Source: a virus. Taken from it: 30,185 nucleotides of DNA. The notes beneath the pieces are model-generated. The model had not been told where the DNA came from. It saw only the letters and a program-made list of their open reading frames with translations, and did no database searches. This document shows, piece by piece, positions 2,614 through 23,711 of the stretch (the stretch's first letter is position 1; each line of letters begins with the position of its first letter). The stretch lies in the IMG/VR virus record IMGVR_UViG_3300042391_000288, positions 1-30,185 of that record. One strand, given 5' to 3'. The translations under genes and the position numbers were made by a program.

Positions 2614-3060
2614 ATGACAGCTAATAACCGCTTATTTGACAAGGTAGTACTTAAAGGACCTGCTAAAAACAGTACATCAGCACCTGGTTCTAAAACTTAT
2701 AAAGGTTTTAGCACAGTCAGCGGTGACAGTAAAAGCTATAGCCTCTACGATCTAGCACTTATAAAACAAGATATTATCAATCACTTCCATATCCGTCAAG
2801 GTGAAAGATTAGAAAATCCTACATTTGGTACTATTATATGGGACTTATTATTTGAACCATTAACTGAAGATGTTAAGCAAATGATAACAAAAAATATTGA
2901 AGACATTATCAACTACGATCCCCGAGTCAGTGCAGATCAAATCATAGTAACAGCCTACGAAAGCGGGATTCAGATAGAATGTAAGCTAACATATCAGCCT
3001 TATAACATCCAAGAAGCAATACAATTTAGGTTTGATCAAGCTAACGGATTATTGAATTAA
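2614..3060 (+). CDS. 25: Baseplate wedge protein gp25
   Basis: A 148-residue member of the GPW/gp25 family, the wedge component that joins gp6 and gp53 near the sheath-initiation site. The family signature is visible at about residues 58-80: 'RQGERLENPTFGTIIWDLLF', with the Gly-Glu-Arg...Pro-x-Phe-Gly pattern. It is followed by a helix ending in 'IEDIINYDPRV' and a beta hairpin. T4 gp25 is 132 residues. The extra length is a roughly 45-residue N-terminal extension rich in Ser, Thr and Lys. The ATG is 8 bases after the gp5 stop. A purine-rich GAAGG lies about 11 bases upstream, inside the end of gene 5, so translation is probably coupled. Confidence 0.9.
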   Translation: MTANNRLFDKVVLKGPAKNSTSAPGSKTYKGFSTVSGDSKSYSLYDLALIKQDIINHFHIRQGERLENPTFGTIIWDLLFEPLTEDVKQMITKNIEDIINYDPRVSADQIIVTAYESGIQIECKLTYQPYNIQEAIQFRFDQANGLLN

Positions 3061-3113: not shown

Positions 3114-6100
3114 ATGTCAGCAACCGATAGACAAAATAGATTACTAGTAGCAGAAGACTGGAAACGAATATACCAGAGTTTCCGTAATGCGGACTTTCAA
3201 AGTTACGACTTTGAAAATTTACGCCGTGTTATGATTGGGTATATCAGGGAAAATTACCCTGAAGACTTCAACGACTACATTGAAAGCAGCGAATACCTAG
3301 CTCTTATAGACCTTATTGCGTTTTTAGGTCAAAGTATTGCGTTCCGTGTTGATCTAAATGCTCGTGAAAACTTTTTAGAGCTAGCAGAACGTCGAGAATC
3401 TGTATTACGATTAGCTCGCCTACTAAGTTACAGATCTAAACGCAATATTTCAGCATCGGGAATGTTAAAGTTTACCACTGTAAGCACCACTCAAAATGTT
3501 TACGATAGCAACGGTCGCAATTTATCAGGGCAAGTAGTTGCATGGAATGATCCTGCTAATGCCAACTGGTATGATCAATTTATTAAAGTTATAAATGCAG
3601 CATTGCCTGCTACACGACAAATAGGCAATCCGGACCGCAGCGGCACAGTGTTTGGAATTCCAACTTCTCAGTATAGATTTCAAAGTGCCAACACTACAGT
3701 TCCTGTATACGAATTTACCAAGGGTGTTGATGGTAGGTCTATGAATTTTGAAGTTGTTTCGACAACATTTACTGATGGTGCAGATATATCAGAAGAACCG
3801 CCTTCAATTGGAAACCGCCTGGCTTTTTTATACAAAGACGACGGAAAAGGAAACGGATCAAGTAATACAGGATTCTTTTTACGATTTACACAAGGCACCT
3901 TAAGTCAAGGCTCGTTTACACTGTCACAACCAGCTACAGATGAATCTGTAGACATCGATGCGGTTAACATCAACAACAGTGATGTATGGTTATACCGTTT
4001 AGATAATAATGGATCAGAAAGCGAATATTGGGCACAAGTACCTAGCTTTGAAGGCAACAACATTATCTATAATAGCCTTAATAAAAGTATTAGAAATATC
4101 TACGGTGTAGTTACTAGGGCCAACGATCGAGTTAGCCTAGTGTTTAGCGACGGTGTGTTCGGCAATTTACCCCAAGGTACTTTTAGAACCTACTATCGAA
4201 CAGGTAATGGATTGAGTTATACAATTAATCCTAAAGACGTTAAGAATGTATCAATCAGCATACCGTATTTTAGCAATATAGGACAAGTAGAAACGCTGAC
4301 ACTTTCGTTGGGACTTCAGTCGTCTGTATCTAACTCATCACCGACTGAGTCAAACGACAGTATTAAAGCCAATGCACCGGCTACTTATTATACACAAAAT
4401 CGTATGATAACTGGTGAAGATTATAATATCAGTCCGTTAAGTGTTAATCAACAGATAGTCAAAGTCAAGGCAGTTAATCGAAGTTCAAGCGGCATTAGTC
4501 GATACTTCGATCTAGTTGATCCGACTGGCAAGTATAGCAAAACAAATTTATTTGCTGATGACGGTGTGTTGTATAAACAGACGTACACTAGCTTTTTTAG
4601 ATTTAAGTATAATACTAGAACTGATATTGAAGCAATCATTTATAACGAATTGTCAGAAGTATTGCGTTCTTCTAATTTAAAGAATTTTTATTACAGCAGC
4701 TTTGATCGAGTACCTGCATCACTCTTAGGGATAATTTGGAAAAACGTCACTACTGATACTAATCAAAGTACGGGATTTATTGAAGATATTATAACTAGTA
4801 CAGCACAGCGGGTTGGTACTTATACTAGCACACTCTTAAGATTTTTTACAGTAGGATCATTGGTTAAGTTTAAATCGCCTACTGGATATTATTTTGATAG
4901 ATCGAATAATAACAAATTAATTTTATCATCTGCCAATGTGCAAAATTTAACAGATACAATATGGGCCAAAGTTGTAACAGTAGCTGGTGACGGCACTAAC
5001 AACGGTATTGGAACACTGTCCACTGGATCTGGTACAATTATTTTAAACGAGATAATTCCTACACTGGCAACAATTGATGAAATTATTCCAGCATGGCGAG
5101 TGTCGTTAGAACCCGGTACGATATCTTCTATGGTAGATTTAGTATTTTCCAACAAACAATTTGGTCTACGCTACGATACTGAAACACGGACTTGGAAAAT
5201 TATTTTAGAAACTAACTTGAACACTACTGATAATTTTAGTTTAGGCCGTCAAGGCGACACTAGTAATCAAAAGGTAGACTCTAGTTGGTTACTATTGTTT
5301 ACAACTGATACAGAAAATTATACAGTCACTTCGAGATTAAGTCGTTATATTTTTGAAAGCAAGCAGCAAGTGAGATTTTTCTTTGATGCGAGTGATAAAA
5401 TTTACGACACTAGAACAAATACTGTAGTAAAGGATGTAATTAAGGTATTAAGTATTAATACTCAACCATCCACTACGGCATCGTTTACCTACGACAGAGA
5501 TTGGGAAATTACCGAAGAATTCGTTGGCCTTGATGGATATGTTGACACTAAGAAAATTCAAATAACATTCAACGATAGCGACGACGACGGTGTAGTAGAT
5601 GATCCTACCCTATTTGAAACTATTGTTGACCCTGTTAACAATGCTATTCCCTTGGCCAACCGATATGTTGTGTTAGAAAGATATATTATCGAGCAAGGTC
5701 AAGAAGACTATAGATATGTACCTAATACAAATAACTTAGTTAAGGTAATGTTAAGTCAGCCAACTAATACAGCAGGCGAAATAACAGGGCAATATTTTTA
5801 TTTTATAGATACTGATACTGTTGTTAAATTAAACCTTGCTGGCGAGTTCATACCTACATTAGATTATAGAGTGTATGCAGGAAGAGATAATCTTAAATTT
5901 CAATACATTCATAACGCAGATTATGAATCAAGAATTGATCCAGGACTAACGAATTTAATTGACATCTTTGTGTTAACTAAACAGTACGACATTAATTACA
6001 GACAGTGGCTTTCTAATTCGATAACCACAGAGCCGTTGCCACTTAGCAGCGATGCTCTATATAACTTACTATCGCCGGAATTGAATAAGATCAAATCTAT

Positions 6101-6563
6101 AAGCGATGAAATTATATACCACCCAGTAAAATATAAAGTATTATTTGGTAGCAAGGCTAGTCCTAATGTGCAGGCAACTTTTAAAGTAGTTAAAAATTCC
6201 GAAGTTGTTATAAGCGACAACGATATTAAAACAAGAACACTAGTTGCAATATCAGAATTTTTTGCTTTAGAAAATTGGGACTTTGGTGATAATTTTTACT
6301 TTAGTGAATTATCTGCCTACGTAATGAATAAGCTAAGTCCTAACATTGTTAACTTTGTTATAGTTCCAAAGAATTCGGGATTGAGCTTCGGTAGTCTTTA
6401 CGAAATTAGATCAGAGAAAGATCAAATTTTTATTAATAGTGCAACTATGGATGATATTGAAATTATCTCCACAATAACAGCGAGTCAAATTAAAAGCGCA
6501 ATGATTTTACAAGATCAAACAGCAGTCAGTCAACAGGCTATAACAAGTTCTGGGAGTAATTAA
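3114..6563 (+). CDS. 6: Baseplate wedge protein gp6, enlarged form
   Basis: gp6 dimers form the inner ring of the baseplate and connect neighbouring wedges. The N-terminus, with 'IYQSFRNADFQSYDFENLR', 'YPEDFNDYIESSEYLALIDL' and 'ARENFLELAERRESVLRLAR', is typical of gp6 in T4-like phages. A baseplate-J-like segment follows: 'FSDGVFGNLPQGTFRTYYRT' (about 346-365) and 'MITGEDYN' (about 431-438). The C-terminus (about 955-1125) is also conserved in style, with 'NFYFSELSAYVMNKLSPNIV'. At 1149 residues it is about 1.7 times T4 gp6 (660). The extra material lies mainly between about residues 550 and 930, where a calcium-loop-like DSDDDGVVDD occurs near residue 820. The start ATG follows GGGAAG by 5 bases. 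The stop overlaps the next start as TAATG. Confidence 0.9.
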   Translation: MSATDRQNRLLVAEDWKRIYQSFRNADFQSYDFENLRRVMIGYIRENYPEDFNDYIESSEYLALIDLIAFLGQSIAFRVDLNARENFLELAERRESVLRLARLLSYRSKRNISASGMLKFTTVSTTQNVYDSNGRNLSGQVVAWNDPANANWYDQFIKVINAALPATRQIGNPDRSGTVFGIPTSQYRFQSANTTVPVYEFTKGVDGRSMNFEVVSTTFTDGADISEEPPSIGNRLAFLYKDDGKGNGSSNTGFFLRFTQGTLSQGSFTLSQPATDESVDIDAVNINNSDVWLYRLDNNGSESEYWAQVPSFEGNNIIYNSLNKSIRNIYGVVTRANDRVSLVFSDGVFGNLPQGTFRTYYRTGNGLSYTINPKDVKNVSISIPYFSNIGQVETLTLSLGLQSSVSNSSPTESNDSIKANAPATYYTQNRMITGEDYNISPLSVNQQIVKVKAVNRSSSGISRYFDLVDPTGKYSKTNLFADDGVLYKQTYTSFFRFKYNTRTDIEAIIYNELSEVLRSSNLKNFYYSSFDRVPASLLGIIWKNVTTDTNQSTGFIEDIITSTAQRVGTYTSTLLRFFTVGSLVKFKSPTGYYFDRSNNNKLILSSANVQNLTDTIWAKVVTVAGDGTNNGIGTLSTGSGTIILNEIIPTLATIDEIIPAWRVSLEPGTISSMVDLVFSNKQFGLRYDTETRTWKIILETNLNTTDNFSLGRQGDTSNQKVDSSWLLLFTTDTENYTVTSRLSRYIFESKQQVRFFFDASDKIYDTRTNTVVKDVIKVLSINTQPSTTASFTYDRDWEITEEFVGLDGYVDTKKIQITFNDSDDDGVVDDPTLFETIVDPVNNAIPLANRYVVLERYIIEQGQEDYRYVPNTNNLVKVMLSQPTNTAGEITGQYFYFIDTDTVVKLNLAGEFIPTLDYRVYAGRDNLKFQYIHNADYESRIDPGLTNLIDIFVLTKQYDINYRQWLSNSITTEPLPLSSDALYNLLSPELNKIKSISDEIIYHPVKYKVLFGSKASPNVQATFKVVKNSEVVISDNDIKTRTLVAISEFFALENWDFGDNFYFSELSAYVMNKLSPNIVNFVIVPKNSGLSFGSLYEIRSEKDQIFINSATMDDIEIISTITASQIKSAMILQDQTAVSQQAITSSGSN

Positions 6564-9500
6564 TGGCATACAGTAAAAATCAGAACGAACCTAAAGTTCC
6601 AATTTCTAATGTTGAAAAAAGAACGACTTCAGATTTACTACCAAGATTTTATAGAACAAATGGTAATAAAAAGTTTTTACAAGCTACCTTAGACCAACTA
6701 ACTCAGCCCGGCACAGTTAAAAAATTAAATGGCTATATTGGTAGAGCATCTGCCAAAGCGGCAACTAGCAATGACATATTTTTACAAGCGCCGGATAAAA
6801 CACGACAAGATTATCAACTTGAGCCGGCTGCAATTATTAAAGATTATCTTGGAAACACAACATTTTTTAAAGATTATATAGATCATATTAATCACATTGA
6901 AGTGTTTGATGGTAATATTAAAAATCACAGTAGACTAAACAAAGAAGAATTCTATAGTTGGAATCCGCATATCTGTTGGGATAAATTTGTTAACTATCAA
7001 CAGTATTACTGGTTACCATTCGGTCCAACTCCGATCGAAGTATTAGGTAATCAGCTAGCAATTCAAAGTACGTACACCGTTCGAAGTGTTGATGAAGTTG
7101 ATAATATTGCATACTTGTTTACACCAAATGGTCTTACGCGAAACCCTACACTAAGATTATTCAGGGGGCAAACATATACATTTGATATCGATGCGCCTGG
7201 CCACCCTTTCAGTATTAAAACACAGCGAGTATCTGGAAATCTAGAACGATATACACAGGGTGTAGAAGGGTATGCTGTTGAAAAAGGTACAATTACATTT
7301 ACTATTCCGTTGACCAGCCCGGATGTATTATTTTATGTTAGTGAAAATGCTGTTGACACCGGTGGCGTATTTCAGATTTTAGATATTGACGAAAACACTT
7401 CGATAGACTTGGGAACAGATTTTCTAGGTAAAAAGACTTATACTGTTCCTAATGGAACAGCCAAGGGCTTGTCAATCAGTAATGGCATGAAGTTAAGTTT
7501 TGGGGGCAATGTTACTCCTGAAAAGTACGGCAACGGCTTCTGGTACGTTGAAGGTGTGGGCACAGAAATTCAATTAGTCAACGAACAGGAACTACAAGTT
7601 AGGACATCATTTAGCGTGGAGTCTCAAATCTTGTTTGATAACGCACCGTTTGATCAATTGCCGTTTGGTGATGCGAGTGTCTTGCCAGGAACTAAAGATT
7701 ACATAACTATCAACCGTTCAAGTGTGGATCAAAATCCATGGTCGAGATATAATAGATGGTTCCACCAAGATGTTGTACGAGCAGCATCGATCGCCAATGG
7801 GCAAGAACCCGACCTTGACCAGACATTAAGAGCTACTCGACCTATTATTGAATTTAACGCTAGTATTAAATTACACAACTTTGGAGTTAAATCTAAAAAG
7901 GCTGTAGATGTTATTGATAATTTTACAACTGATGTCTTTAGTACTATTGAAGGTACTTTAGGATATAATATTGATGGCATTGATCTAGCAGAAGGCATGC
8001 GGGTATTGTTTGTAGCAGATACTGACAGCATGGTACGGAATAAAATCTTTAAAGTTAACTTTATTAATGTATTGCCTGACAGTCGACAACTATCGTTCGA
8101 TGCTGCTACGGCAGTGGATATTGAGAACGACTATATTACGTTTACTACAGAACACGGATTAAATTCTAAAAATCAAGTAACATATCTTGCTGAAGGTAAT
8201 GCACCAGTATCGGGACTAGTTAATCGTCAAGTTTATTATGTAAAAGCAATTGATACATTTACTATTGAACTTTACAATAACCCTACGCTGACAACAAAAG
8301 TAGATATTTTTGCTCCTAGTTTAGATATACACAAATTTGAGTTATTTCCGGGATATCGCAGACAAATTACACTAATTGAAGAAGACGATAGCAATCCTCA
8401 GTTATACGAAACTGTAACAGTAAATTACGGGCAGCAGGAACTAATTACTTCAAGTATTACAGGAAATCAAGGACAGACTTATTGGTACAACGGAACTACT
8501 TGGAAATTAGGACAAGTAAAAAATTCAGTAAATCAACCACCTCTATTTGATATATTTGATATCAACGGTAACAGTTATTCAGATAACTCGGTATACGACG
8601 GTTCTACGTTTGCAGGTACGAAAATCTTTAGTTATAAAGTAGGAAGTGGCAGTAATGACTCTGAGCTGGGATTTTCTTTAACTTATCAAAACATTAATAA
8701 TATCGGTGATATCGTTTTTGAATTTAATTTATTAAAAGATACATTTGCCTATAAAAACGTTACTGATATTTTGTATAAAAATACAGATGTCGGATACGTT
8801 AAAATCACACGAGAGCTAGATCGTTATAGTTTTGAAAATGCATGGAAAACTAGTTTAATTGAAAATAGTCAGCCTGTTGTTAGAATTTTCAAAGAAAGCG
8901 GACTAATTAATAATTTTCCTATTGATGTATACGACGACTTAACAGCACTAGATGATTTAGAAGTTAGAGTTTATGTTAACGGTAAACGGATCGCCAAGGA
9001 TGCATACACAATTGAAACAGGCATTGTTAGAAAACATGTAGTCTTGAATACTGAAGTTGCACTAACTGATATCGTTACGTTACGATGTTTTTCAGCACAG
9101 TCGAAGAATGACATAGGCTACTACGAGTTGCCATTAAGTCTACAAAATAACCCACTGAATAATAATATCGAACAGTTTACATTAGGTGAAGTTATAGACC
9201 ATGTGGACAGTATCATTGACAACATTTCTGTATTCCAGGGAGTGTATCCAGGCGACGGAAATTTAAGAGATATTGGAAATCTTTCAGCATACGGTACACG
9301 ATTCGTTCAGCATAGTGGTCCTATGAACAATAGTTTATATCACTTAGGGTCTACAAACGCAAACGTTATCAAAGCATTAGATCAAGCTAGAATCGACTAC
9401 GGCAAATTTAAAAGAGCATTTATAATTGCTGCCACAGAAAGTGGAATTGATACTGACCCACGACAGCACGTTGATTTTATACTACAACGTGTTAACGGAG

Positions 9501-12500
9501 CTCGTCCTAAGACTGATGCATACTACCTATCTGACATGTTTGGATATACAGCATCTAACAGAATTGAATATACAGTAGTTGATTCGAGAATTAAAATGTA
9601 TCCGTTAACATCGGCATTTAATTTAGATGATTGCTCTAATAAATCTATTAATGTTTACCTAAACGGTAATCAATTAATTTACGGTCGAGATTACATTTTT
9701 GGTACTGATGTATTTTTTGAAATTCTCACAGACATTCAAGAAGATGACTTAATTGAAGCATTTGAATTTGAAAGTACCGACGGTTGCTTTTGCCCACCAA
9801 CTCCTACTAAATTAGGCCTATATCCTAAGTTTGTACCTAAAAAGTATATTGATGATACCTACATAGAACCGACAGAAGTAATACAAGGTCACGATGGTAG
9901 TATCACTATTGCATTCGGCGATTACAGGGATGATCTACTCCTTGAATTAGAAACACGAATCTTCAATAATATTAAAGTACATTACAACACAGATATATTT
10001 GATGTGTATGATTTTATTCCTGGATATAATAGAAAAGTTCCCTATTCAAGGACCGAAGTCGATACTATTTTATCTAAGTATTTTTTCCAATGGACTATTA
10101 ATATACAAGAAGATTTTACCAAAGATACTTGGTATGATCAAACAAATAGCTTTACCTATAATTATAGAGGAAGTTATACACCCGACAATTTAGATGTTCC
10201 GGCTGCATGGCGCGGAATTTATCGATGGCTGTTTGATACAGACCGTCCTCACACAAACCCTTGGGAATGTTTAGGCTTTAGCATTGAGCCGTCTTGGTGG
10301 CAAACAGTATATGGTCCAGCACCGTATACAAGTGATAATTTAGTATTATGGGATGACATAAAAGAAGGTATTGTTCGAGAACCAGGAGTGCCTGTACGTC
10401 GAAATCCTAAATTTGCAAAACCTATCCTAGCTCAAGGATTACCGGTCGATGATCAAGGCAAACTAGTTAGCCCTAAAGATTCGGGTTTGGTACAAGGTAC
10501 TATACAAACCGGCGACGGCGGTTATTACACCTTCGGTGATCACTCAATGGTAGAAACTGCATGGCGCAGATCAAGCTACTTACCTTTTGCCTTAATTCAA
10601 GCATGTTTGCTAATGCAACCTAACCACGTGCTAGGCCGTTGTCTAGATCGTAGTCGCATACAGCGCAATTTAAACAATCAATTAATTTATTCATCTACTG
10701 GATTGAGAATTAGATTAGAAGATATTGTTGTTCCTTCTACCTCAAATAGAAATAATGATACTAGACAATATGCTTGCGGGTTGATCAATTATGTTATAGA
10801 TTATTTGTCAAGCGAAAATATTATAAGAATCGACCAGTATGCTGTAGATTTAAAGTCGTTAACAAACAATCTAGCAAGTCGATTAGGTGCGTTTACTAAC
10901 AAACCTAAATATAGAATACTATTAGACAGTAAGAATCCTAGCAGCAGCGGTGGCGTATTTGTGCCTGAAGAAGACTATGCTGTTGAATTAAATGTATCTA
11001 GTGCTATCAAGAAAGTCACATACAGTGGCGTAGTAATAACTAAATTTGCTGATGGATTTGAAGTTCGAGGCTACAACTTTGATAATCCGTATTTTACATA
11101 TTATCCGCCAGTGCAGGATGGCAAGACTATTAATGTGGGCGGTATAAGCGAAAGTTATATTACATGGTCGCCAGCTCAAATCTACATTGCAGGTAAAGTA
11201 GTTAAGAATGACAATCAATACTATCGAGTAAAAACAAACCATACTAGTGGAGAACAGTTTGATTCAAACTATTATAGTCGACTAGCAGGATTGCCTATCG
11301 TTGGTGGGCGTGACGTTGTACTTAAAAAGACTTGGGATTTAACAGATCCAAGAGTAATTGCGTACGGTACAAAATTTTATACAATACAAGATGTTGCAGA
11401 CTTCTTACAGGGCTATGGTGTATATCTAGAACAGTTGGGATTTGTATTTGATGATTTTGATAATGACCTAGCAACTATTACCAATTGGGAAACTAGCGTT
11501 AAAGAATTTTTATTCTGGTCCACGCAAAATTGGAGTGCAGGCGCTGTTATCAGTTTAAGCCCATGCGCCAATAAGCTAGTGTTCAACTCGGTAAATTCAG
11601 TCGTGGGCGATATTACTGATCAATTCCGCGGATACAGTGTTTACCGAGTCGACGGCCAAAAATTAGACTTTGAAACTATTACTGCATACCGAAATGGTAA
11701 CGTGTTTATACTTGAGCCCGAAGATACAAATTACGGTATATTCGGAGTTACGCTATATCTATTGCAAAAAGAGCATGTGGTCATTTTAGAAAATAAAACA
11801 TTGTTCAATGATACAATATATGATCGAGAAGCAGGATATCGCCAAGAACGAGTTAAGATTATAGGATATGTTACCAGTGAGTGGACAGGTGGATTCGAAA
11901 TTCCAGGCTTTATCTATGATCAAGCTATTGTTTCGCCGTGGGGTGCTTGGACTGATTATCGTCTAGGTGACATCGTCAAGCATAAGGAATTCTATTACAG
12001 TGCCAACACATTTCTAGTAGGTTCGGAAAAATTTAATAACGAAGACTGGGTGCTGTTAGATGAAAAGCCAAAGTCTGAACTATTACCAAACTGGGATTAT
12101 AAAGCAGAAACATTTACAGACTTTTATGATCTCGATTCCGATAACTTAGATAGTGGTCAGCAAAAGATTGCTCAACATTTAATCGGTTATCAAAAGCGCC
12201 AGTATCTTGAAAACATCATTCAGAATGATGTAAGTCAGTACAAGTTCTACCAGGGTATGATCATTGAAAAAGGAACACAAAACGTTCTTAACAAGCTGTT
12301 CGATGTACTAAGTGCAGACGGTACAGAAAGCCTAACCTTCGACGAAGAATGGGCATTCCGAGTAGGCGAATATGGATCAGTTGATACGTTTAATGAAATT
12401 GAGTTTATATTAGACGAAGCCAGTTTTAAAATTAATCCTCAACCATTAGAGTTAGTTGATTCGCTGGATGTGTCAGCTTTAGATTTTGTCTATAGACAAA

Positions 12501-15500
12501 AGCCGTCGGACGTGTATATTAAGCCAGCAAACTACACTAGCAATGTTTGGCCAACTACAAATACTACACTTGATTATTTGAGAACACCTGGCTATGTAAG
12601 AAAAGAAGATGTGCAAGTTAATGTAGACACATTAGATGACCTAGTATCGTACGACATTTCTTCGTTTGTTGAAGGAGATTATGTATGGACGGCATTTGAA
12701 CCAACAGTTAATCGTTGGAACATTTATAGATTCACATCTGCACCTTTTGTAATTACTAATGTTACATATTCCAATTCAGTAGTAACAGTTGAATGTGACC
12801 AAACAATTACCCTTGAAAATTTAAATGTTGGAGATTTTATAGGTTTAGAAAATGTACAATCGTTGAAGGGCTTTTATAAGGTCACATCAAAGACACTGAA
12901 CAAGTTTACATTCTCTGCATCGTTAGTTGGATTTTCAGAATTTACTGAATCTAATAAACAAGAAATCTTACCGTATGTATTGACATTACAAAGAGTTTCT
13001 AACATTGACGATGCAAATGATATTATTCCACAGCGCATTAAGACTGACGAATTAATTTGGGCCGATAACAACGGCAACGATCAATGGACAGTATATAAAA
13101 ATGCAGGTACGTATAGAAGATCTACAATAGTTAATTCAGACCCGGCAGAAGAACTAAATTTCGGCCTAGCATCAGCAATTAGTGATTCGGGCAACATTGC
13201 AGCGATATCTGACACTGGTGGTATAACAATATACCAAAAAGGAACAGCTGACAATTCTTGGAAAGTAAATGGCAGAATTACTAGAGATGACCCTAATTTA
13301 ACAACTACAATTAGCACAATTAGTTTAGTTACTAGACTTTCAAATATTAGCACAGTCACTACAGCAACCGATCACGGTCTAATAAATGGTGATATAGTAT
13401 CAGTTCTTTCGTCAACTGACACCACATTTACTGAAAAAAATGTAGAAGTTACTGTTACTGGTCTAAAGAAATTTACATATGCTAACATAGGCAGCAACGT
13501 CAGTAGCATTGGCGGCATAGTAGTAAGAACACCTACTGCTGCCTTTGGCGCAATGATTAAGTTATCTCCCGATGCATACTGGCTAGCTATTGCAGACATT
13601 AATCATTCATCTAATAAAGGTCGAGTTTCTATGTACACTCGACAGAACAACGGCGAATACTTATTTAAATCGCATGTAGTGAGTCAATCACCGACAGTTG
13701 ATGAATACTTTGGTAATAATATTGCATTTGCTAAAACAGACAGTGGTTACTTGAGTGTAATTTCAGCTCCCGGTAGTGATTCAGTATACGTTTACAATTA
13801 TGTAGCATCATGGGCATCTGCTGGGGTACTAACCAATGATCCAAGTTTTGGTCATGATATTGCATTGACTCACACTGGCAACATATTAATAGTATCAGCG
13901 CCTCGTGCTGCTAGCAGTTCTGGTAGCGTGTTTGTATACGAATATAACGGATCTACTTACGATCTAGCTAACACACTTACTGCAGACATTGCAAATGATG
14001 CTGAGATGTTTGGAGAAAGTGCTGCAATATCTTCAAATGGAAATTACATTGCTGTTAGCGCAACTATGGCCGATACTGGTAATACTATAGATGCTGGCAG
14101 AGTGTTAGTCTATAAATTAGATGATGCTAGCTATGTATCTGGATTACCATATCAGACTATCTATAGTCCGCGCAGTGAGACTAATGAAAAATTTGGATTT
14201 AATATTGACTTTATGAACGGCAGCGAAACTCTAGCTGTATTCTCAAAACACGGTGATGTTGATACTACGACGTCATTTGATCAGTATTCTGAAAAACTAT
14301 ATCCTAATTCTACAGTAGATGGCGACCGTTATGTCAATGACCCTGCTAGTGAACCTCAACAAACTTCTATCACATTTGACAACAATTCGTTAAGACTAAT
14401 CGATAGAAACATAAATGTAGGACGTATTGATATTTTTGATCGATACAACACTAAATTTATCTACGGCGAGAGTTTAAGTAACACTAGCTTATTGTGGTCC
14501 GGCTACGGAGAAGATATTGCAGTAGGATCTGATGTAATTTTAGTTTCTGCAATTCGAGAGTCTGACTCATCTAAAGCAGAATCTGGTACTGTATATTCAT
14601 ACGTAAAGCCAGTAGGCACAACTAGTTGGACACCGTTCCACGTTGAGCTACCGACTATAGACATAGATAAAATTAAAAAAGTATTCTTGTACAATAAAGT
14701 TACTAGTTCAATTGTCACTTACTTAGATGTTATAGATCCAATACAGGGAAAAATTCCAGGCGTTGCAGATCAAGAAATTAGATTTAAAACATTCTTTGAT
14801 CCTGCAACGTACTCAATTGGCTCGGCAGCAGTCAATGTTGACGATGGCGCAAACTGGACAAAAAACCAAGTTGGTATGTTATGGTGGGATCTTACTAATG
14901 CTAAATTCATTGACCCAAGAAGCGGAAACATTACCTATAGATCGTCGGTATGGAATCAGTTATATGATACCGCTAGTATAGATGTGTACGAGTGGGTTGA
15001 GACCTCACTACTACCGAGCCTGTGGAATAAGCAAGCAGATACTGAAGCCGGCCTTGCTAAAGGAATTAGCGGCCAAAGCAAGTACGGAGATTCGATTTAT
15101 AGTGTTAGCAAGCGATACGACTCTATCAGTCAAACATTTAAAGAAACGTACTACTACTGGGTTAAGAACAAGAAAAATACTCCTAATGTTCCGGGTAGAA
15201 CACTTAGCGCATTTGATACTGCTAGTTTGATAGCAGATCCAGTTGCCTATGGATACCCTTGCATTGCGTTTACTGGAACAAACAGTTTAAGTTTAATTAA
15301 TTTAAGCAGATACCTTCAAGATAAAAATATTGTATTAAACGTACAGTATTGGTTAAGCGATTATAAAAACAGCAACTACCATAGTCAATGGAAATTATTA
15401 AGCACTAATGAAACTACAGTAATTCCGTCATTGATTGAAAAGAAATGGTTTCATAGTCTTGTAGGAAAAGACGACAACGATCGTGTTGTTCCTAATATTG

Positions 15501-18500
15501 ATCTTCCAGTTAAACATCGCTACGGCATCGAATTTAGACCAAGACAAAGTATGTTTGTCAACCGTATCGAAGCTTTAAAACAATTCATTGAACGAGTTAA
15601 TACTGTTATTAATACTAAATTAATTTCAGATGATTACGATTTAACAGACTTAGAACAATTCGAAGCAGAACCTAGTACTATTAGTGCTGAGTGGGATCGT
15701 GTTATAGATACTGATGCAGAATTGCGATTTGTCCCAACTATATTGTTAGATACCGCTACTGTTACTCCGGTAGTTGTTAACGGCAGAATCGTGAGTGTGA
15801 CTATAACCAATAGTGGTCGAGGATACGGTACTCTTAGGGAATATGCAGAAGGATTGTGGTATGGTCCGAATATTTCAGTAACTGGCCCAGGTAGTGATGC
15901 TGTAATTAAGACAATTATCGACGCGGCCGGCCAGGTTGTTGATACTGTAATTTTAAATCAAGGTCGCGGATATACCAACGATACTTCCTTGGTTATTAGA
16001 GATTTCAAAGTACTAGTTCACAGCGATACAACTTCGTATGATACATGGAGCATTTATGCATGGAATAAAGCAATTGGCGAGTGGACACGAGTTCGTAGTC
16101 AAAGTTACGATGTAAGGAAATACTGGAAATATCTAGACTGGTATGAAGCCGGGTATAACCAATTTGTTAAAATTGATTTCTTAGTAGAAAACACTTATGA
16201 ATTAGTAACAACAGATATTCCGCTTGGGTCGATAGCCAAAGTTAAGAATATTGGATCAGGCGGTTGGTTATTATTAGAAAAATTTAACAACTTATCGACT
16301 ATTGACTACACTCAGAATTTTAGAGTTATTGGCAGAGAACACGGCACTGTTGAATTTTTATCAAATTTATATAAATTTAATACCAGCACGGTAGGTTACG
16401 ACGGTCCGTTATTCGATGCAGACATATACGACAACAGTCCGACAACTGAGTTGAAAATAATTTTAAATGCAATAAAGGATAAGATATTAATTGATGAATT
16501 TAGAGTTGAGTTCTTAAAACTATTCTTTGCCAGTGTGCGATATGCACTTACTGAACAGGTGTTTATTGATTGGGCCTTTAAGACAAGTTTTGTTAAATCA
16601 ATGCACAATGTCGGCGAACTAAAACAAAAAGTTACATATAACAGTGATAATTTAGAATTTTTTGAATCTTATATTCGAGAAGTTAAACCCTATAGAACTA
16701 AAGTTAGAGAATATGTAAGTAACTATAGTAGTCTAGACAGGTCACAAAGTTCAGTAACTGATTTTGATTTACTTCCAGTTATAAACAATCAACTTGAAGT
16801 TAATCCGCTAACAGTTCATATTAATTCTAATGGTGAAGTTGTTACTGGATTTACTGAAATAGATACGTATCCTTGGAAACATTGGAATGATCACGTAGGT
16901 TACGAAATCATCTCAATTAAGGTAGTCGATGGCGGCACTGGATATGAAACTCGTCCAATTGTTGAAATTTCAGGAGTGCAAGTTCCTGGAGCTACATCAG
17001 CCTATTTTAAAGTAACCGACGGCACTGGAAATAATGATTTTGTAATCAAATTAACAGATCCGGCAAAAATTCAAAATGCTAGAGATCAAATAAACGGTGT
17101 TGTCCCTCGGCTACACATTACTGGTTTGATTATAAAAAGCACAGCTGATTACAATCCAAACTACAGTTATCATTACGATCCTGATACTATTGACTTTTTT
17201 GAAGTCGCTATGGAAGTATGCGATGCAACTTTTGACTATACTGAAGAGTATTTAGATGAAGCAGGTGGAGCATTTTTACCAGGATTAAGATTGTGTCCAT
17301 GGAACAGTCTTCTAGTAGAGGAGATTGCAGGAGTGCAAGTTCCCGGAGATACTACATTACCTGCATCAGCTGTTGCCTACATAAGCAACGGTAAAGTAAT
17401 TAGAATTGACATCGTTAATGCTGGCACACGTTGGGTATCAACACCTACGATTACAATACGCGGCGGCAACACCGCAGGAGTAGACACCACTGCAAGAGCT
17501 GTGGCAATTATTGGTAACGGAGTTATTAGAACAAATTATATCAAGATTAAATTTGATAGGACTAGTAAAGTATATGAAATAACTGAGTTAGCACAAGCTG
17601 AAACGTTTACGGGATCGGGAAGTAAAACTCAGTTCTCATTAAGATGGTCGCCTGATATTAAGTTTGGTAATTCTACTGTTACTATTGACAATACTGATGT
17701 ATTGAAAGATGACTATACACTAACTACTGTAACGTCTACTAGCAGAGGGTATACTAGTTACTCAGGGCTGCTAACGTTCGTCACACCGCCACCATTAGGT
17801 AGTGTTATTGAGATAACCTACAATAAAAATTATGTGCATTTGAATGCACTAGACAGAATTAATTTTTATTACAATCCAACGACTGGACAAATTGGTAAAG
17901 ATCTTGCACAGTTAATGACAGGTATCGATTATGGCGGAGTACAGATAACAGGATTAGGTTTCGGAGTTAACGTAGGTTGGGATGCCCTGCCTTGGTTTAC
18001 TGATGCCTGGGATGCGGTTGATCCGACATTTGAAGATTATATTGCAACAGTTAGTACTGTAACATATGCATATCGTATGCCATACGTTCCAGCTGTCGGA
18101 CAAGAAATCAATATATATGTTTCAAAGAATATACCTACAATCATAGTTGAAACTATCGGCGAAGTAGATGCAGCATTGGCTGAAATTGAGCCAGGCGATC
18201 TAGTAGTTAACGAAAGTCGTAGAGTTGTAATCAACAATGCAACAGTGCCTGCTACGCTGTACGTTTGGGACGGTAGCGAATGGAATAACAGTAACATAGT
18301 GGCAAGTTCGTCGTATCTACCTTCTGTGCGTATTGATGATTCTAATTATCTAACTATCAATCAAACTAACGATGCAGCTATAATGACATCATTCATCGGT
18401 GACGGTGAAGTCGATATTGTTACATTACCAACTTCACCGATTGCAACCGTATCTGTGATTAAAATTTCACGCTCAGCTGATGTGGCAACAGCAGTAACTG

Positions 18501-21292
18501 ATAAATTACACGGACTATTTGACGGAGAAGTAGTAACTATTTCTGTAATAACTCCGAACGGTACTTTTAGCGAAACGAATGTTGCTGTGACTATCATTAA
18601 TGGTAATACATTTAGTTACTTAAACACTGGTGTAGATACCGCAATTATTACCTCTAGTGGTCAAGTTACTGTTGCATTAAAAACAAATGATAGGATCACA
18701 TTCCGTAAAGATACTAGTGACGGCAGTTATGCTCCACGAGCCGACGAATATGATACACAGATTACCGGCGGCAATCTAGCATATTCTACAGCTAGCGGAT
18801 TAGCAGCCGATGATATTATCCTAGACGGTGACGGATTAATTACACCTGACACTAGTCATGCTCCTGAAGAAATAGTCCCTGGGCATGTAACTGATACAGT
18901 GGCAATTAAAGTATTCCACAGACCATCAGGCGGCTGTCCAAACATTTTGTTTAACAGCCACATCGGCGACGGAACTACTACTAGTTTTACCATTGGCCAG
19001 TATTTCCAAAATCAACAGTCTGTGATAGTTAAACTAGATGATGCAATACAGTTGTTAAACTTTAACTACACAATTGATTATCAAACTAATACTGTTATAT
19101 TTGAATCTGCTCCTGCAAACCAATCAAAGGTTACTATTTTAAGCATTAGTTTCAATAGTGCAAATATACTTGATCTTGATTATTTTGTATCGGACGGAGT
19201 TACTACTGAGTATATTACCAAGGCAAGTTGGTTACCAACTATAACATCTACAGTATTAGTAAATGGCGAAACATATAGCTATGTGTTGTTTAGTACAGAC
19301 GATACCTATACAGATAAAGTAGGTGAGTCGTGGAGATCGCGTGCCGGTATACGATTCGAAACAGCACCTCCGGTTGGGGCCATAATAAATTATGTAATTG
19401 ATGCTAACGGATTTGAACAAACAGCTAGTATTGTTAAGTCAGATACTGTGACCTTTACTACAGGTGTTCAAACTTACTCGTTAATTAATGCGGTAGGAGT
19501 AAACAGTCCATTAGATCAAAACGTGCTAGTAAAAACTGGACAACGTATTTTAAGACCAGCAAGTGCAAACTATTTTACAATGAATGACGATCAGTTAGTG
19601 TATGCCCTACGAGATTACAAATATTTAAATCTCGGAGTTAATGCTACTGATTTAACAGTTTATGTTGGTAGTAATTTATTGGCATTGGGCGCTGACTATG
19701 ATGTGGAATTCGACTACGAAGGAGCGATATACAGCTTAGTAGAAAATTCCACAGATATCCTTAGCGGCACAGACTACGAGGTTGATGATATTTTGACAAT
19801 CTCCGGCGGAACAGTATCTACTCTTGGATCTAGTGCAAAATTTTTAGTAACTCGAGTAAATGCATCCGGTCGAATCCAAACGTTAGAACCTATTGAACTA
19901 GGATCTTATGTTGTAGTTCCGGATGGCGTGATTATTTTATCAGGCGGGTCTGGCACCGATGCAACAATCAGCGCAACATTTGAAATTACTACAAATAGTC
20001 CTAACATTAGTGTAACGGTAAATCCTGCAAAGTATATTAGTGGAGAAAAACTAACTATAGTCATTGATAATGACGCCGAGTATACTATAACAAATAATAC
20101 TATTACCTTCACCGATACATATCCAGTTGGAACAATTTTTGAAGTAATAAGTTTTTACAATCACAATGTATTAGGTATAGAACGTACAGTTGACGAACTA
20201 ATTCCGACAACGGCTATAGCTAACGGTACAGCAGAATACTACGAGCTTGCTGGCAAACTAGGTGGCAAATTTAAATTAAGAAATACTGCAATATCGGGAG
20301 ATTTTGTTTGGGTTATTAAAAACAGTACACTATTGATGAGTGGTGTTGATTACAGATTAGATACTGATCATACTACTATTAAACTAAACAATTATCTGTT
20401 CGACGGCGATGTAATCCAAATAATTGCCTTTACAAATACAGTAGTACATGATAGTTTTGCCTATATGCAGTTTAAGGATATGTTGAATCGTGTACATTAT
20501 AAACGATTGAATAAAGCTAAGTCAACTAGATTAGATAAAGATCTAACACAGTTCTCTAAGACTATTACAGTACTAGACGGTACTGTATTAGATACTCCGG
20601 TTGCAAGTAAAAACCTACCCGGTATCATTGAAATCAATGGCGAGCGTATTGAGTACTTTAACAAAGTAGGCAATGTCTTAAGTCAGTTACGTAGAGGTAC
20701 ATTGGGTACAGGTATTCCTGTGCTTCACGGTAAAGATAGCCAAATTTTAAATATTGGATCTAGTGAAACTATTCCCTACAAGGACGAATATGTGATTAAA
20801 ACACATACCGCCGATGGTATTAGTAACACTTATGACTTACCGTTTACTCCGTCGATTACTACCGTTGGGAATAACATAGCTACCGACTTTGATGTATTTG
20901 TTGGTGGATATCGATTAAAGAAAAAAGAGTATACAATTTTTGCTAAGATTGACGGAGCAACTGGTCAACTAGTCCATCCTGATTATCCTGATAGTGTTGA
21001 AGGAGATATTACATTGCCTGCAGAATTTAGTAACACACCATCAACTAATTCTGCTATTAAACTAACCGCTACTCCGGAGTTGGGAGCTAAGATCGTTGTG
21101 GTTAAAAAGCAAGGAAAACTATGGAATGATCTAGGACAACGTCTAGCTAAATCAGATAATTCTGTGTCTAATTTCTTAAAAACTACTGGCACTAACTGGG
21201 TAGAATCATACCTAGATAAATATGAAGATAGAGTCTTAGGCGGCGACGGCAATCCTCTTCAAACCGGCGACGGTGAACCACTGGAATATTAA
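6563..21292 (+). CDS. Giant modular baseplate wedge protein (gp7 position), 4909 residues
   Basis: One open frame of 14,730 bases with no stop, starting at the ATG of a TAATG overlap with gene 6, with GGGAG 6 bases upstream. Its place directly after gp6 and its N-terminus ('LLPRFYRTNGNKKFLQATLD', then an aromatic WNPHICW...YYWLPFG block, residues 1-165) suggest the gp7-type wedge protein. T4 gp7 is 1032 residues. Approximate layout: core 1-165; cupredoxin-like 194-275; HGL module 515-595; core 1100-1500, Trp-rich near 1216; chitin-binding-like modules 1533-1577 and 1790-1836; core 1835-1955 with 'YLENIIQNDVSQYKFYQGMI'; FG-GAP-like propeller 2185-2690 containing a second HGL module; core 2735-3035; G-x-G-Y modules 3071-3145; core 3157-3393 ending 'REVKPYRTKVREYV'; then beta repeats to the end. 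No transmembrane segment, signal peptide or enzyme motif was seen. The family name is inferred. Exterior or fibre-like domains are plausible. Confidence 0.65.
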   Translation: MAYSKNQNEPKVPISNVEKRTTSDLLPRFYRTNGNKKFLQATLDQLTQPGTVKKLNGYIGRASAKAATSNDIFLQAPDKTRQDYQLEPAAIIKDYLGNTTFFKDYIDHINHIEVFDGNIKNHSRLNKEEFYSWNPHICWDKFVNYQQYYWLPFGPTPIEVLGNQLAIQSTYTVRSVDEVDNIAYLFTPNGLTRNPTLRLFRGQTYTFDIDAPGHPFSIKTQRVSGNLERYTQGVEGYAVEKGTITFTIPLTSPDVLFYVSENAVDTGGVFQILDIDENTSIDLGTDFLGKKTYTVPNGTAKGLSISNGMKLSFGGNVTPEKYGNGFWYVEGVGTEIQLVNEQELQVRTSFSVESQILFDNAPFDQLPFGDASVLPGTKDYITINRSSVDQNPWSRYNRWFHQDVVRAASIANGQEPDLDQTLRATRPIIEFNASIKLHNFGVKSKKAVDVIDNFTTDVFSTIEGTLGYNIDGIDLAEGMRVLFVADTDSMVRNKIFKVNFINVLPDSRQLSFDAATAVDIENDYITFTTEHGLNSKNQVTYLAEGNAPVSGLVNRQVYYVKAIDTFTIELYNNPTLTTKVDIFAPSLDIHKFELFPGYRRQITLIEEDDSNPQLYETVTVNYGQQELITSSITGNQGQTYWYNGTTWKLGQVKNSVNQPPLFDIFDINGNSYSDNSVYDGSTFAGTKIFSYKVGSGSNDSELGFSLTYQNINNIGDIVFEFNLLKDTFAYKNVTDILYKNTDVGYVKITRELDRYSFENAWKTSLIENSQPVVRIFKESGLINNFPIDVYDDLTALDDLEVRVYVNGKRIAKDAYTIETGIVRKHVVLNTEVALTDIVTLRCFSAQSKNDIGYYELPLSLQNNPLNNNIEQFTLGEVIDHVDSIIDNISVFQGVYPGDGNLRDIGNLSAYGTRFVQHSGPMNNSLYHLGSTNANVIKALDQARIDYGKFKRAFIIAATESGIDTDPRQHVDFILQRVNGARPKTDAYYLSDMFGYTASNRIEYTVVDSRIKMYPLTSAFNLDDCSNKSINVYLNGNQLIYGRDYIFGTDVFFEILTDIQEDDLIEAFEFESTDGCFCPPTPTKLGLYPKFVPKKYIDDTYIEPTEVIQGHDGSITIAFGDYRDDLLLELETRIFNNIKVHYNTDIFDVYDFIPGYNRKVPYSRTEVDTILSKYFFQWTINIQEDFTKDTWYDQTNSFTYNYRGSYTPDNLDVPAAWRGIYRWLFDTDRPHTNPWECLGFSIEPSWWQTVYGPAPYTSDNLVLWDDIKEGIVREPGVPVRRNPKFAKPILAQGLPVDDQGKLVSPKDSGLVQGTIQTGDGGYYTFGDHSMVETAWRRSSYLPFALIQACLLMQPNHVLGRCLDRSRIQRNLNNQLIYSSTGLRIRLEDIVVPSTSNRNNDTRQYACGLINYVIDYLSSENIIRIDQYAVDLKSLTNNLASRLGAFTNKPKYRILLDSKNPSSSGGVFVPEEDYAVELNVSSAIKKVTYSGVVITKFADGFEVRGYNFDNPYFTYYPPVQDGKTINVGGISESYITWSPAQIYIAGKVVKNDNQYYRVKTNHTSGEQFDSNYYSRLAGLPIVGGRDVVLKKTWDLTDPRVIAYGTKFYTIQDVADFLQGYGVYLEQLGFVFDDFDNDLATITNWETSVKEFLFWSTQNWSAGAVISLSPCANKLVFNSVNSVVGDITDQFRGYSVYRVDGQKLDFETITAYRNGNVFILEPEDTNYGIFGVTLYLLQKEHVVILENKTLFNDTIYDREAGYRQERVKIIGYVTSEWTGGFEIPGFIYDQAIVSPWGAWTDYRLGDIVKHKEFYYSANTFLVGSEKFNNEDWVLLDEKPKSELLPNWDYKAETFTDFYDLDSDNLDSGQQKIAQHLIGYQKRQYLENIIQNDVSQYKFYQGMIIEKGTQNVLNKLFDVLSADGTESLTFDEEWAFRVGEYGSVDTFNEIEFILDEASFKINPQPLELVDSLDVSALDFVYRQKPSDVYIKPANYTSNVWPTTNTTLDYLRTPGYVRKEDVQVNVDTLDDLVSYDISSFVEGDYVWTAFEPTVNRWNIYRFTSAPFVITNVTYSNSVVTVECDQTITLENLNVGDFIGLENVQSLKGFYKVTSKTLNKFTFSASLVGFSEFTESNKQEILPYVLTLQRVSNIDDANDIIPQRIKTDELIWADNNGNDQWTVYKNAGTYRRSTIVNSDPAEELNFGLASAISDSGNIAAISDTGGITIYQKGTADNSWKVNGRITRDDPNLTTTISTISLVTRLSNISTVTTATDHGLINGDIVSVLSSTDTTFTEKNVEVTVTGLKKFTYANIGSNVSSIGGIVVRTPTAAFGAMIKLSPDAYWLAIADINHSSNKGRVSMYTRQNNGEYLFKSHVVSQSPTVDEYFGNNIAFAKTDSGYLSVISAPGSDSVYVYNYVASWASAGVLTNDPSFGHDIALTHTGNILIVSAPRAASSSGSVFVYEYNGSTYDLANTLTADIANDAEMFGESAAISSNGNYIAVSATMADTGNTIDAGRVLVYKLDDASYVSGLPYQTIYSPRSETNEKFGFNIDFMNGSETLAVFSKHGDVDTTTSFDQYSEKLYPNSTVDGDRYVNDPASEPQQTSITFDNNSLRLIDRNINVGRIDIFDRYNTKFIYGESLSNTSLLWSGYGEDIAVGSDVILVSAIRESDSSKAESGTVYSYVKPVGTTSWTPFHVELPTIDIDKIKKVFLYNKVTSSIVTYLDVIDPIQGKIPGVADQEIRFKTFFDPATYSIGSAAVNVDDGANWTKNQVGMLWWDLTNAKFIDPRSGNITYRSSVWNQLYDTASIDVYEWVETSLLPSLWNKQADTEAGLAKGISGQSKYGDSIYSVSKRYDSISQTFKETYYYWVKNKKNTPNVPGRTLSAFDTASLIADPVAYGYPCIAFTGTNSLSLINLSRYLQDKNIVLNVQYWLSDYKNSNYHSQWKLLSTNETTVIPSLIEKKWFHSLVGKDDNDRVVPNIDLPVKHRYGIEFRPRQSMFVNRIEALKQFIERVNTVINTKLISDDYDLTDLEQFEAEPSTISAEWDRVIDTDAELRFVPTILLDTATVTPVVVNGRIVSVTITNSGRGYGTLREYAEGLWYGPNISVTGPGSDAVIKTIIDAAGQVVDTVILNQGRGYTNDTSLVIRDFKVLVHSDTTSYDTWSIYAWNKAIGEWTRVRSQSYDVRKYWKYLDWYEAGYNQFVKIDFLVENTYELVTTDIPLGSIAKVKNIGSGGWLLLEKFNNLSTIDYTQNFRVIGREHGTVEFLSNLYKFNTSTVGYDGPLFDADIYDNSPTTELKIILNAIKDKILIDEFRVEFLKLFFASVRYALTEQVFIDWAFKTSFVKSMHNVGELKQKVTYNSDNLEFFESYIREVKPYRTKVREYVSNYSSLDRSQSSVTDFDLLPVINNQLEVNPLTVHINSNGEVVTGFTEIDTYPWKHWNDHVGYEIISIKVVDGGTGYETRPIVEISGVQVPGATSAYFKVTDGTGNNDFVIKLTDPAKIQNARDQINGVVPRLHITGLIIKSTADYNPNYSYHYDPDTIDFFEVAMEVCDATFDYTEEYLDEAGGAFLPGLRLCPWNSLLVEEIAGVQVPGDTTLPASAVAYISNGKVIRIDIVNAGTRWVSTPTITIRGGNTAGVDTTARAVAIIGNGVIRTNYIKIKFDRTSKVYEITELAQAETFTGSGSKTQFSLRWSPDIKFGNSTVTIDNTDVLKDDYTLTTVTSTSRGYTSYSGLLTFVTPPPLGSVIEITYNKNYVHLNALDRINFYYNPTTGQIGKDLAQLMTGIDYGGVQITGLGFGVNVGWDALPWFTDAWDAVDPTFEDYIATVSTVTYAYRMPYVPAVGQEINIYVSKNIPTIIVETIGEVDAALAEIEPGDLVVNESRRVVINNATVPATLYVWDGSEWNNSNIVASSSYLPSVRIDDSNYLTINQTNDAAIMTSFIGDGEVDIVTLPTSPIATVSVIKISRSADVATAVTDKLHGLFDGEVVTISVITPNGTFSETNVAVTIINGNTFSYLNTGVDTAIITSSGQVTVALKTNDRITFRKDTSDGSYAPRADEYDTQITGGNLAYSTASGLAADDIILDGDGLITPDTSHAPEEIVPGHVTDTVAIKVFHRPSGGCPNILFNSHIGDGTTTSFTIGQYFQNQQSVIVKLDDAIQLLNFNYTIDYQTNTVIFESAPANQSKVTILSISFNSANILDLDYFVSDGVTTEYITKASWLPTITSTVLVNGETYSYVLFSTDDTYTDKVGESWRSRAGIRFETAPPVGAIINYVIDANGFEQTASIVKSDTVTFTTGVQTYSLINAVGVNSPLDQNVLVKTGQRILRPASANYFTMNDDQLVYALRDYKYLNLGVNATDLTVYVGSNLLALGADYDVEFDYEGAIYSLVENSTDILSGTDYEVDDILTISGGTVSTLGSSAKFLVTRVNASGRIQTLEPIELGSYVVVPDGVIILSGGSGTDATISATFEITTNSPNISVTVNPAKYISGEKLTIVIDNDAEYTITNNTITFTDTYPVGTIFEVISFYNHNVLGIERTVDELIPTTAIANGTAEYYELAGKLGGKFKLRNTAISGDFVWVIKNSTLLMSGVDYRLDTDHTTIKLNNYLFDGDVIQIIAFTNTVVHDSFAYMQFKDMLNRVHYKRLNKAKSTRLDKDLTQFSKTITVLDGTVLDTPVASKNLPGIIEINGERIEYFNKVGNVLSQLRRGTLGTGIPVLHGKDSQILNIGSSETIPYKDEYVIKTHTADGISNTYDLPFTPSITTVGNNIATDFDVFVGGYRLKKKEYTIFAKIDGATGQLVHPDYPDSVEGDITLPAEFSNTPSTNSAIKLTATPELGAKIVVVKKQGKLWNDLGQRLAKSDNSVSNFLKTTGTNWVESYLDKYEDRVLGGDGNPLQTGDGEPLEY
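7142..7385 (+). other. Cupredoxin-like domain inside the giant wedge protein
   Basis: Residues about 194-275 run 'NPTLRLFRGQTYTFDI', 'GHPFSIKTQRV', 'GTITFTIPLTSPDVLFYV' and end 'GGVFQILD'. This is the plastocyanin-like pattern often found in proteins of marine phages and bacteria. The first copper-type His is present (His214), but the usual late Cys/His/Met cluster is replaced by 'YVSENAVDTGG', so a structural role is more likely than metal binding. Confidence 0.6.
11159..12078 (+). other. Two carbohydrate-binding-like (CBM5/12-type) modules in the giant protein
   Basis: Residues about 1533-1577 ('ITWSPAQIYIAGKVVKND', 'QYYRVKTNHTSGEQFD') and 1790-1836 ('AWTDYRLGDIVKHKEFYYSA', 'EDWVLLD') share the pattern Trp...Tyr-x-x-Gly-x-x-Val...Tyr-Tyr...Phe...Tyr/Trp. 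It resembles small chitin-binding modules. About 650 bases of other sequence separate the two. The assignment is from motif shape only. Confidence 0.4.
13151..14640 (+). other. Seven-bladed FG-GAP-like beta-propeller in the giant protein
   Basis: Residues about 2197-2690 contain seven blade starts: FGLASAIS, FGAMIKLS, FGNNIAFA, FGHDIALT, FGESAAIS, FGFNIDFM and YGEDIAVG. Each is followed by a strand of the type 'GNYIAVS' and most by a 'GRVLVYK'-like strand. This matches the FG-GAP repeats of integrin-alpha-type propellers. The gap between blades 1 and 2 is longer because an HGL module is inserted there (about 13310-13530). The usual DxDxDG calcium loops are not evident. Confidence 0.65.
16971..17343 (+). 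repeat. Exact 16-base direct repeat, copies 357 bases apart
   Basis: CAGGAGTGCAAGTTCC occurs at 16971-16986 and 17328-17343. Both copies are in the same frame and encode GVQVPG within ISGVQVPGA and IAGVQVPGD. The spacing is exactly 119 codons, so recombination between the copies would delete or duplicate a segment without shifting the frame. Confidence 0.85.
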
Positions 21293-21293
21293 A

Positions 21294-22131: not shown

Positions 22132-22157
22132 CATTATCAATTAGGAGTAATACAACT

Positions 22158-23099: not shown

Positions 23100-23711
23100 A
23101 TGCAAGGTAAAGATCTATCAGGAATCCATATTGAGGGACATATTAAAATATGGTATCCCGAGTCCGGCGAAGTTGCTGTCAATAAGCGTAATGCTATCCA
23201 TTACGAAAATATGAGTGTCGCCCTTGCAGAGAGTATTGCCGATGCAGGTCAGGGTTTTATTAATAAAATGGCATTTGGTAACGGCGGCACTAGCGTCGAT
23301 CCAACTGGCATTATTACCTATCTTACTCCTAATTCAACGGGTACTAATGCTAGTCTGTATAATCAGACATACGAAAAAGTAGTCAACGATAGATCAAGCA
23401 GTAATTTAGATCCAACTAGAAATTATATTGAAACTCGACACGTAACTGGTAAAAATTATACAGACGTGTTTATAACCTGCTTATTAGACTACGGTGAACC
23501 TAACGGTCAAGAAGCATTTGATAACACCAGTAACAGCGATAGCGACTACGTATTTGATGAACTGGGATTAGTATCATATAGCGCAACAGGCAATCCTAGA
23601 TTGCTAACTCATGTTATTTTTCATCCAGTTCAGAAGTCATTAAACAGACTTATTCAGATTGACTACACAGTTAGAATTCAAAGTCTAACAGGACTAAGTG
23701 AGGTAGCTTAA
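23100..23711 (+). CDS. Conserved phage structural protein of unknown function
   Basis: A 203-residue protein in the fibre cluster. Visible stretches are 'IHIEGHIKIWYPESGEV', 'KRNAIHYENMSVALAESIAD', 'INKMAFGNGGTSVD', 'LDYGEPNGQEAFD', 'YVFDELGL' and 'THVIFHPVQKSLNRLI'. I recall similar proteins among marine T4-like phages without an assigned role. There is no signal peptide, membrane segment or enzyme motif. The His- and Asn-rich first third and beta-rich second half would suit a baseplate or fibre-attachment part. It starts 18 bases after the previous stop with a weak AAAGAGAA site. Its stop overlaps the next start (TAATG), which ties its expression to the fibre that follows. A fibre connector role is possible but unproven. 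Confidence 0.6.
   Translation: MQGKDLSGIHIEGHIKIWYPESGEVAVNKRNAIHYENMSVALAESIADAGQGFINKMAFGNGGTSVDPTGIITYLTPNSTGTNASLYNQTYEKVVNDRSSSNLDPTRNYIETRHVTGKNYTDVFITCLLDYGEPNGQEAFDNTSNSDSDYVFDELGLVSYSATGNPRLLTHVIFHPVQKSLNRLIQIDYTVRIQSLTGLSEVA

Follow-up and report, generated by a model that had tools for sequence, protein, structure and literature searches.

A 4909-residue protein in the gp7 position of a phage baseplate operon is a member of a common giant family and probably a gp7-type wedge subunit

In the baseplate wedges of phages T4 and XM1, and in the corresponding part of the type VI secretion system (T6SS), one copy of gp7, gp17, or TssG, respectively, binds two copies of gp6, gp16, or TssF via a helical bundle and a trifurcation domain (PMC10457771, PMC6300606). 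Flexible parts of XM1 gp17, a protein of 242 residues (PMC10457771), hold the tail spikes (PMC10457771, PMC6300606), and gpI of phage P2 has been proposed to be the counterpart of gp7 and TssG (PMC6300606). Around a small core, proteins of the gp7 type differ enormously in size, as XM1 gp17 illustrates. The gene that follows gp6 is gp7 both in T4 and in cyanophages. In T4-like cyanophages, the slot following gp25 and gp6 encodes proteins of 4067-4446 aa that are annotated as gp7, 'baseplate wedge subunit', or 'baseplate wedge initiator', among them those of P-HM1 (4446 aa), P-TIM68 (4307 aa), ACG-2014f (4225 aa), and Bellamy (4067 aa). The protein in the gp7 slot of Synechococcus phage S-SZBM1 has 6619 aa (L107:8728-28587).

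We analysed a stretch of viral DNA of 30,185 bases (the window), which is the whole of its virus record. Its baseplate-related genes are as follows.

1241..2605, + strand: baseplate hub/tail lysozyme homologue, 454 aa (phrog_13211, E 2.9e-52)
2614..3060, + strand: gp25-like baseplate wedge protein, 148 aa (phrog_261, E 2.9e-19; phrog_43, E 2.2e-14)
3114..6563, + strand: gp6-like baseplate wedge protein, 1149 aa (phrog_10646, E 9.7e-298; phrog_219, E 1.2e-17)
6563..21292, + strand: giant protein in the gp7 position, 4909 aa (phrog_10938, 1048 bits; purifying selection)
23100..23711, + strand: conserved 203-aa protein downstream of the giant protein (phrog_11259, E 3.6e-71)

The genes for the hub lysozyme, gp25, gp6, and the giant protein, followed by fibre-like open reading frames (ORFs), are a baseplate operon. 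An earlier reading of this DNA, made from its letters alone (the sequence-only reading), had placed the giant protein in the gp7 position, and the gene order agrees with that placement, both in the window and in relatives. The gp6-like protein is 33-37% identical, over more than 80% of its length, to annotated jumbo-phage wedge proteins. We interpret the giant protein as a wedge subunit of the gp7 type in the baseplate of a jumbo phage with a contractile tail and assign this interpretation a probability of roughly 0.75. Its gp7 identity rests mainly on gene position.

The giant protein matches the full PHROG 10938 profile in five stretches (E 0, 1048.5 bits). This family is annotated only as "virion structural protein" and is filed under 'head and packaging'. 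Homologues lie directly after gp25 and gp6 in the jumbo phages PA5oct (gp355, 3857 aa), Atu_ph07 (gp180, 4449 aa), Phosso (4555 aa), Vibrio 2.275 (3771 aa), 121Q (582, 3323 aa), RaK2 (ORF070, 3326 aa), and CBB (CBB_236, 3340 aa). SCTP-2 also has a homologue (3807 aa), but its gp6 homologue is located elsewhere in the genome. Two sets of 80 relatives were taken from IMG/VR. Among relatives with sufficient upstream DNA to be testable, gp6 lies immediately upstream of the homologue in 70 of 71 and gp25 lies upstream in 66 of 67. Given that the gene adjoins gp6 in all but one of the relatives tested, the category 'head and packaging' looks wrong. CBB_236 has been detected in the CBB virion by mass spectrometry with 21 unique peptides (PMC5259590), and PA5oct gp355, marked ESI-MS/MS, is likewise a homologue found in virions.

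The strongest conservation within the family is found in a block that is also the candidate gp7 core (the KGT block).

12113..12412, + strand: most conserved block, residues 1851-1950, candidate gp7 core (highest family conservation)

T4 gp7 and the cyanophage giants have a common core motif, FYxxKGx(6-7)LFxxLY (hhalign E 9e-6). T4 gp7 contains one KGT-type motif, and the cyanophage giants have theirs close to the start of the chain. The giant protein has a single site of this type, FYQGMIIEKGTQNVLNKLFDVL at residues 1895-1916, which falls within the family's most conserved 100 residues and begins with FYQGMIIEKGT (residues 1895-1905, window 12245-12277). When the gp7/cyanophage KGT profile was scanned over 81 overlapping segments of the giant protein, the two segments that bear this site scored 26.8 and 26.0, compared to 16.1 for the next best outside the block and a mean of 11.0. 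None of 300 column shuffles of the block reached the real score. The E value of the match is 3e-4 as a single comparison and roughly 0.02 when corrected for the number of segments. These results suggest that the KGT block is a weak but specific sequence link between the giant protein and gp7. P2 gpI shows a similar arrangement, with HKGT followed by EWW where the giant protein has KGT followed by EEWA; this likeness was found by eye, is weak alone, and is equalled in score by 6 of 300 shuffles.

Given the slot after gp6 and the KGT core block, a gp7 function of the giant protein is probable, and its descent from gp7 is likely, although these comparisons support it weakly. The sequence-only reading had described a wedge protein in the gp7 position and proposed, as a check, a profile search with its core blocks against T4 gp7. 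In the comparisons made here, the KGT block is the one link between the two families, and the whole-length profile comparison and the searches for Pfam gp7 domains are negative. When the family was compared with T4 gp7 over its whole length by hhalign, no significant similarity emerged, and iterative HMM searches that started from cyanophage N-termini and from gp7 KGT cores never recruited the giant protein. Pfam Gp7_helical, Gp7_5th, and Gp7_6th, which are present in T4 gp7, are absent from the giant protein at E 0.1. Since they are likewise absent from the annotated gp7 of P-TIM68, these domains cannot discriminate among the giants. Significant hhalign matches to cyanophage gp7 run via shared beta modules and not via the core, and sequence searches of the PDB gave no match. 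Structure prediction, a further check that had been proposed, was unproductive for the KGT region: AF2 yielded two low-confidence pieces (in a 541-aa piece, pLDDT stays below 50 over the core; in a 164-aa piece, it is about 50-70 close to the motif), and Foldseek searches of the PDB with both returned no gp7 match.

Two further likenesses were considered and rejected. A by-eye match of the N-terminus of the giant protein (LLPRFYRT...NKKFL) to that of cyanophage gp7 has a P of 0.01-0.04, ranks fourth among the segments compared, and was not counted. PHROG matches of two members of alignment A1 (presumably Atu_ph07 and Phosso) to cyanophage families are attributed to GxGY modules within the piece compared and were not counted towards gp7.

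The alternative that survives best is that the giant protein belongs to the baseplate or tail surface, has no relation to gp7, and took over the position after gp6. The real gp7-like wedge core would then have been lost or be encoded at another locus, and the match at the KGT motif would reflect chance or convergence. This alternative draws on the restriction of the gp7 likeness to one short block and on the uninformative structure predictions. We nevertheless consider it unlikely, since adjacency to gp6 is kept almost without exception, the block that matches gp7 is the very one that is most conserved, and no second annotated gp7 candidate is found around gp6 in the window, PA5oct, Atu_ph07, or RaK2.

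Next in rank, and likewise unlikely, is a variant of the gp7-type interpretation in which gp7 and gp8 functions, perhaps with those of gp10, are combined in one chain. It would fit with the gene order downstream, in that gp8 comes after gp7 in T4 and cyanophages and none is annotated after the giant protein in RaK2-, CBB-, and PA5oct-type phages. However, the profiles of gp8, gp9, gp10, and gp11, as well as that of gp6, score at noise level against the giant protein, except for a GxGY module common to cyanophage gp8.

Homologues of the conserved 203-aa protein also lie downstream of the giant protein, as aligned, in PA5oct, Atu_ph07, Phosso, SCTP-2, and Vibrio 2.275. Comparison of PHROG 11259 with gp8, gp9, and gp11 gave no matches, and the 203-aa protein is a possible candidate for a wedge or fibre-connector partner. 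In the window, two ORFs of 283 and 307 aa (21273-23081) separate it from the giant protein, and the 307-aa ORF has a tail-fibre-like match at its C-terminus. ORFs of these sizes are absent from the same interval in PA5oct and Phosso. Further downstream (23711-30185) are three successive fibre-like ORFs of 772, 956, and more than 410 aa, the last of which is cut by the contig end. All three match common N-terminal families (PHROG 15511, 14394, and 8309), which suggests that they may be paralogous fibre proteins that share one attachment site.

The protein that we interpret as a gp7-type wedge subunit is encoded by a single ORF on the + strand (6563-21292) with an ATG start that overlaps the stop codon of the gp6-like gene by 1 base. 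A search for stops within the frame found none, and the computed mass of the 4909-residue product is 547.9 kDa, in agreement with the single 14.7-kb frame and mass of about 540 kDa described in the sequence-only reading. In the nearest IMG/VR relatives, which are 55-67% identical, the frame is likewise single and open, with a length of about 4450-4835 aa. Comparisons with these relatives over about 4,400-4,500 aligned codons show saturated synonymous sites (pS 0.72-0.74) and a pN of only 0.21-0.30, a contrast that extends from the N-terminal part through the middle to the C-terminal third. Since pN is far below saturated pS along the chain, the frame encodes a translated protein under selection, and this purifying selection is strong. 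Complete frames of the family (n = 85, isolates included) span 2373-5184 aa, with 17 being at least 4909 aa, and one incomplete relative exceeds 5300 aa. Although the window is one metagenome contig, we consider an assembly artefact that fuses separate genes a very unlikely explanation for the frame, given purifying selection across the whole protein and 85 complete homologous frames, some from isolates, in the identical slot.

Blocks conserved throughout the family lie at residues of about 1-150, 400-500, 600-1000, 1050-1800, 1850-2000, 2700-3050, 3300-3400, and 3600-3850 of the giant protein, and the stretches between them are found in fewer relatives. This family alignment, together with the module matches listed here, bears out the earlier description of conserved blocks alternating with inserted beta modules.

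7091..7417, + strand: cupredoxin-looking beta module, residues 177-285 (tblastn to cyanophage proteins)
8084..8362, + strand: 'HGL' beta module, residues 508-600 (hhalign E 8e-10 to P-TIM68 gp7 815-915)
11930..12076, + strand: chitin-binding (CBM5/12)-like module, residues 1790-1838 (weak Foldseek, AF2 piece 1590-2130)
13160..14540, + strand: seven FG-GAP-like repeats, residues about 2200-2660 (PF14312 below cutoff, E 0.023)
15722..16003, + strand: GxGY beta module, residues 3054-3147 (hhalign E 1.7e-12 to P-TIM68 gp7 1083-1169)
16463..16762, + strand: conserved block WAFKTSF...EVKPYRTKVREY, residues 3301-3400 (conservation 0.62-0.64)

The module at residues 177-285 is common to cyanophage baseplate and tail-fibre proteins, with tblastn E values from 9e-10 (Bellamy) to about 1e-3; we infer the name of its fold, cupredoxin, from sequence. 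The chitin-binding-like module was placed by eye within an AF2 piece whose weak Foldseek matches to chitin-binding modules have E values of about 0.1-0.7 and probabilities mostly above 0.9. For Pseudomonas phage PAC2, the annotation of a homologue reads 'chitin-binding type-3 domain'. The FG/YG repeats, at residues 2200, 2328, 2383, 2429, 2483, 2544, and 2648, are predicted to form a beta-propeller. The block at residues 3301-3400 is found in almost all relatives, and the C-terminal third of the protein contains several short G-D/N-G-x-T beta repeats.

One further insert, a BP74_N domain, is flanked by direct repeats.

16964..16995, + strand: left copy of a 32-nt direct repeat (28 of 32 positions match)
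16997..17326, + strand: BP74_N domain insert, residues 3479-3588 (PF23621, E 4.2e-40, 136.6 bits against a cutoff of 27)
17321..17352, + strand: right copy of the 32-nt direct repeat (28 of 32 positions match)

Occupancy at residues 3501-3550 is 0.04 among 35 aligned relatives, indicating that BP74_N is missing at this position from nearly all of them. The domain also occurs on six other IMG/VR contigs, in five of them within homologues of the giant protein at other sites. These sites, as equivalents of residues of the protein in the window, are as follows.

L348: after about residue 4620
L349 and L351: about residue 900 (identical over the domain and apparently one phage)
L350: between residues 3018 and 3149
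L352: about residue 1660 (cut by the contig end)

The remaining contig, L353, stops inside the domain. With the identical L349/L351 pair set aside, the BP74_N copies are 81-92% identical in DNA, and the scaffold proteins that carry them are mostly about 25-52% identical. This disparity, together with the differing sites, points to recent lateral movement, and lateral movement of in-frame domains is known in phages for Ig-like domains. On balance, we favour the view that BP74_N may be an in-frame cassette that moves among five sites of one giant baseplate protein in different metagenome phages. Two contigs break inside the domain, making chimeric assembly a caveat for this mobile-domain reading, and the other complete copies have no comparable flanking repeat. 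A search for the domain in cultured phages gave no match; one in bacterial genomes gave none either, but it used narrow patterns and is uninformative. If the cassette reading is true, the giant protein would serve as a scaffold that accepts mobile surface domains, and domain gain in baseplates would become directly testable.

The simplest reading of this architecture is that the giant protein keeps a small core and has grown to about five times the size of T4 gp7 through added modules. The core would comprise the KGT block near residue 1900, probably together with N-terminal helices, and by analogy with T4, XM1, and the T6SS it would join a gp6 dimer and so form the wedge hub, a (gp6)2-giant protein complex. 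Assuming T4 stoichiometry, each wedge would contain one copy and each baseplate six, adding about 3.3 MDa. Much of the remaining chain is made up of beta modules that are inserted and exchangeable (cupredoxin-like, propeller, carbohydrate-binding-like, GxGY/HGL, and BP74_N) and that may extend outward and carry fibres or contact the host surface.

The sequence-only reading had treated the size of this protein as remarkable. However, GenBank already contains gp7 proteins from cyanophages with lengths of 4067-4446 aa, as well as the 6619-aa slot protein of S-SZBM1, which is larger than the 4909-aa protein in the window. Since giants of about 2,400 to more than 5,300 aa are common in sequenced phages, with cyanophages reaching 6,619, the size is not new, and the protein is a further member of a known, common giant family. 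An enlarged protein in the gp7 slot is thus a common design in jumbo phages and T4-like cyanophages, shared by dozens of environmental phages, and no oddity of a single contig. Residues 1851-1950 provide a concrete range for testing the wedge core and so make the gp7 identity testable. Should a wedge core be shown there, the whole family could be reannotated from 'virion structural protein' to baseplate wedge protein.

Compared to known systems, the giant protein is closest to its PHROG 10938 homologues in jumbo phages, which are homologous over much of the chain and 26-29% identical in the matched parts of residues 1-2000. It is longer than the isolate proteins listed above, most of which lack the BP74_N insert and in which the cupredoxin-like module is mostly missing. 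The cyanophage giants (PHROG 2885 and relatives) resemble it in slot, in similar or larger size, in the HGL and GxGY modules, and in the candidate KGT core, but this core lies near residues 200-700 in those proteins and near residue 1900 here, several of them are followed by an annotated gp8, and core similarity is significant nowhere outside the KGT block. T4 gp7 (PDB 5IV5, 5HX2) is about five times smaller than the giant protein and P2 gpI is about 28 times smaller, yet both contain the KGT motif. Like the giant protein, the members of this group, T4 gp7, XM1 gp17, P2 gpI, and T6SS TssG, adjoin gp6- and gp25-type genes and combine a small core with peripheral insertions.
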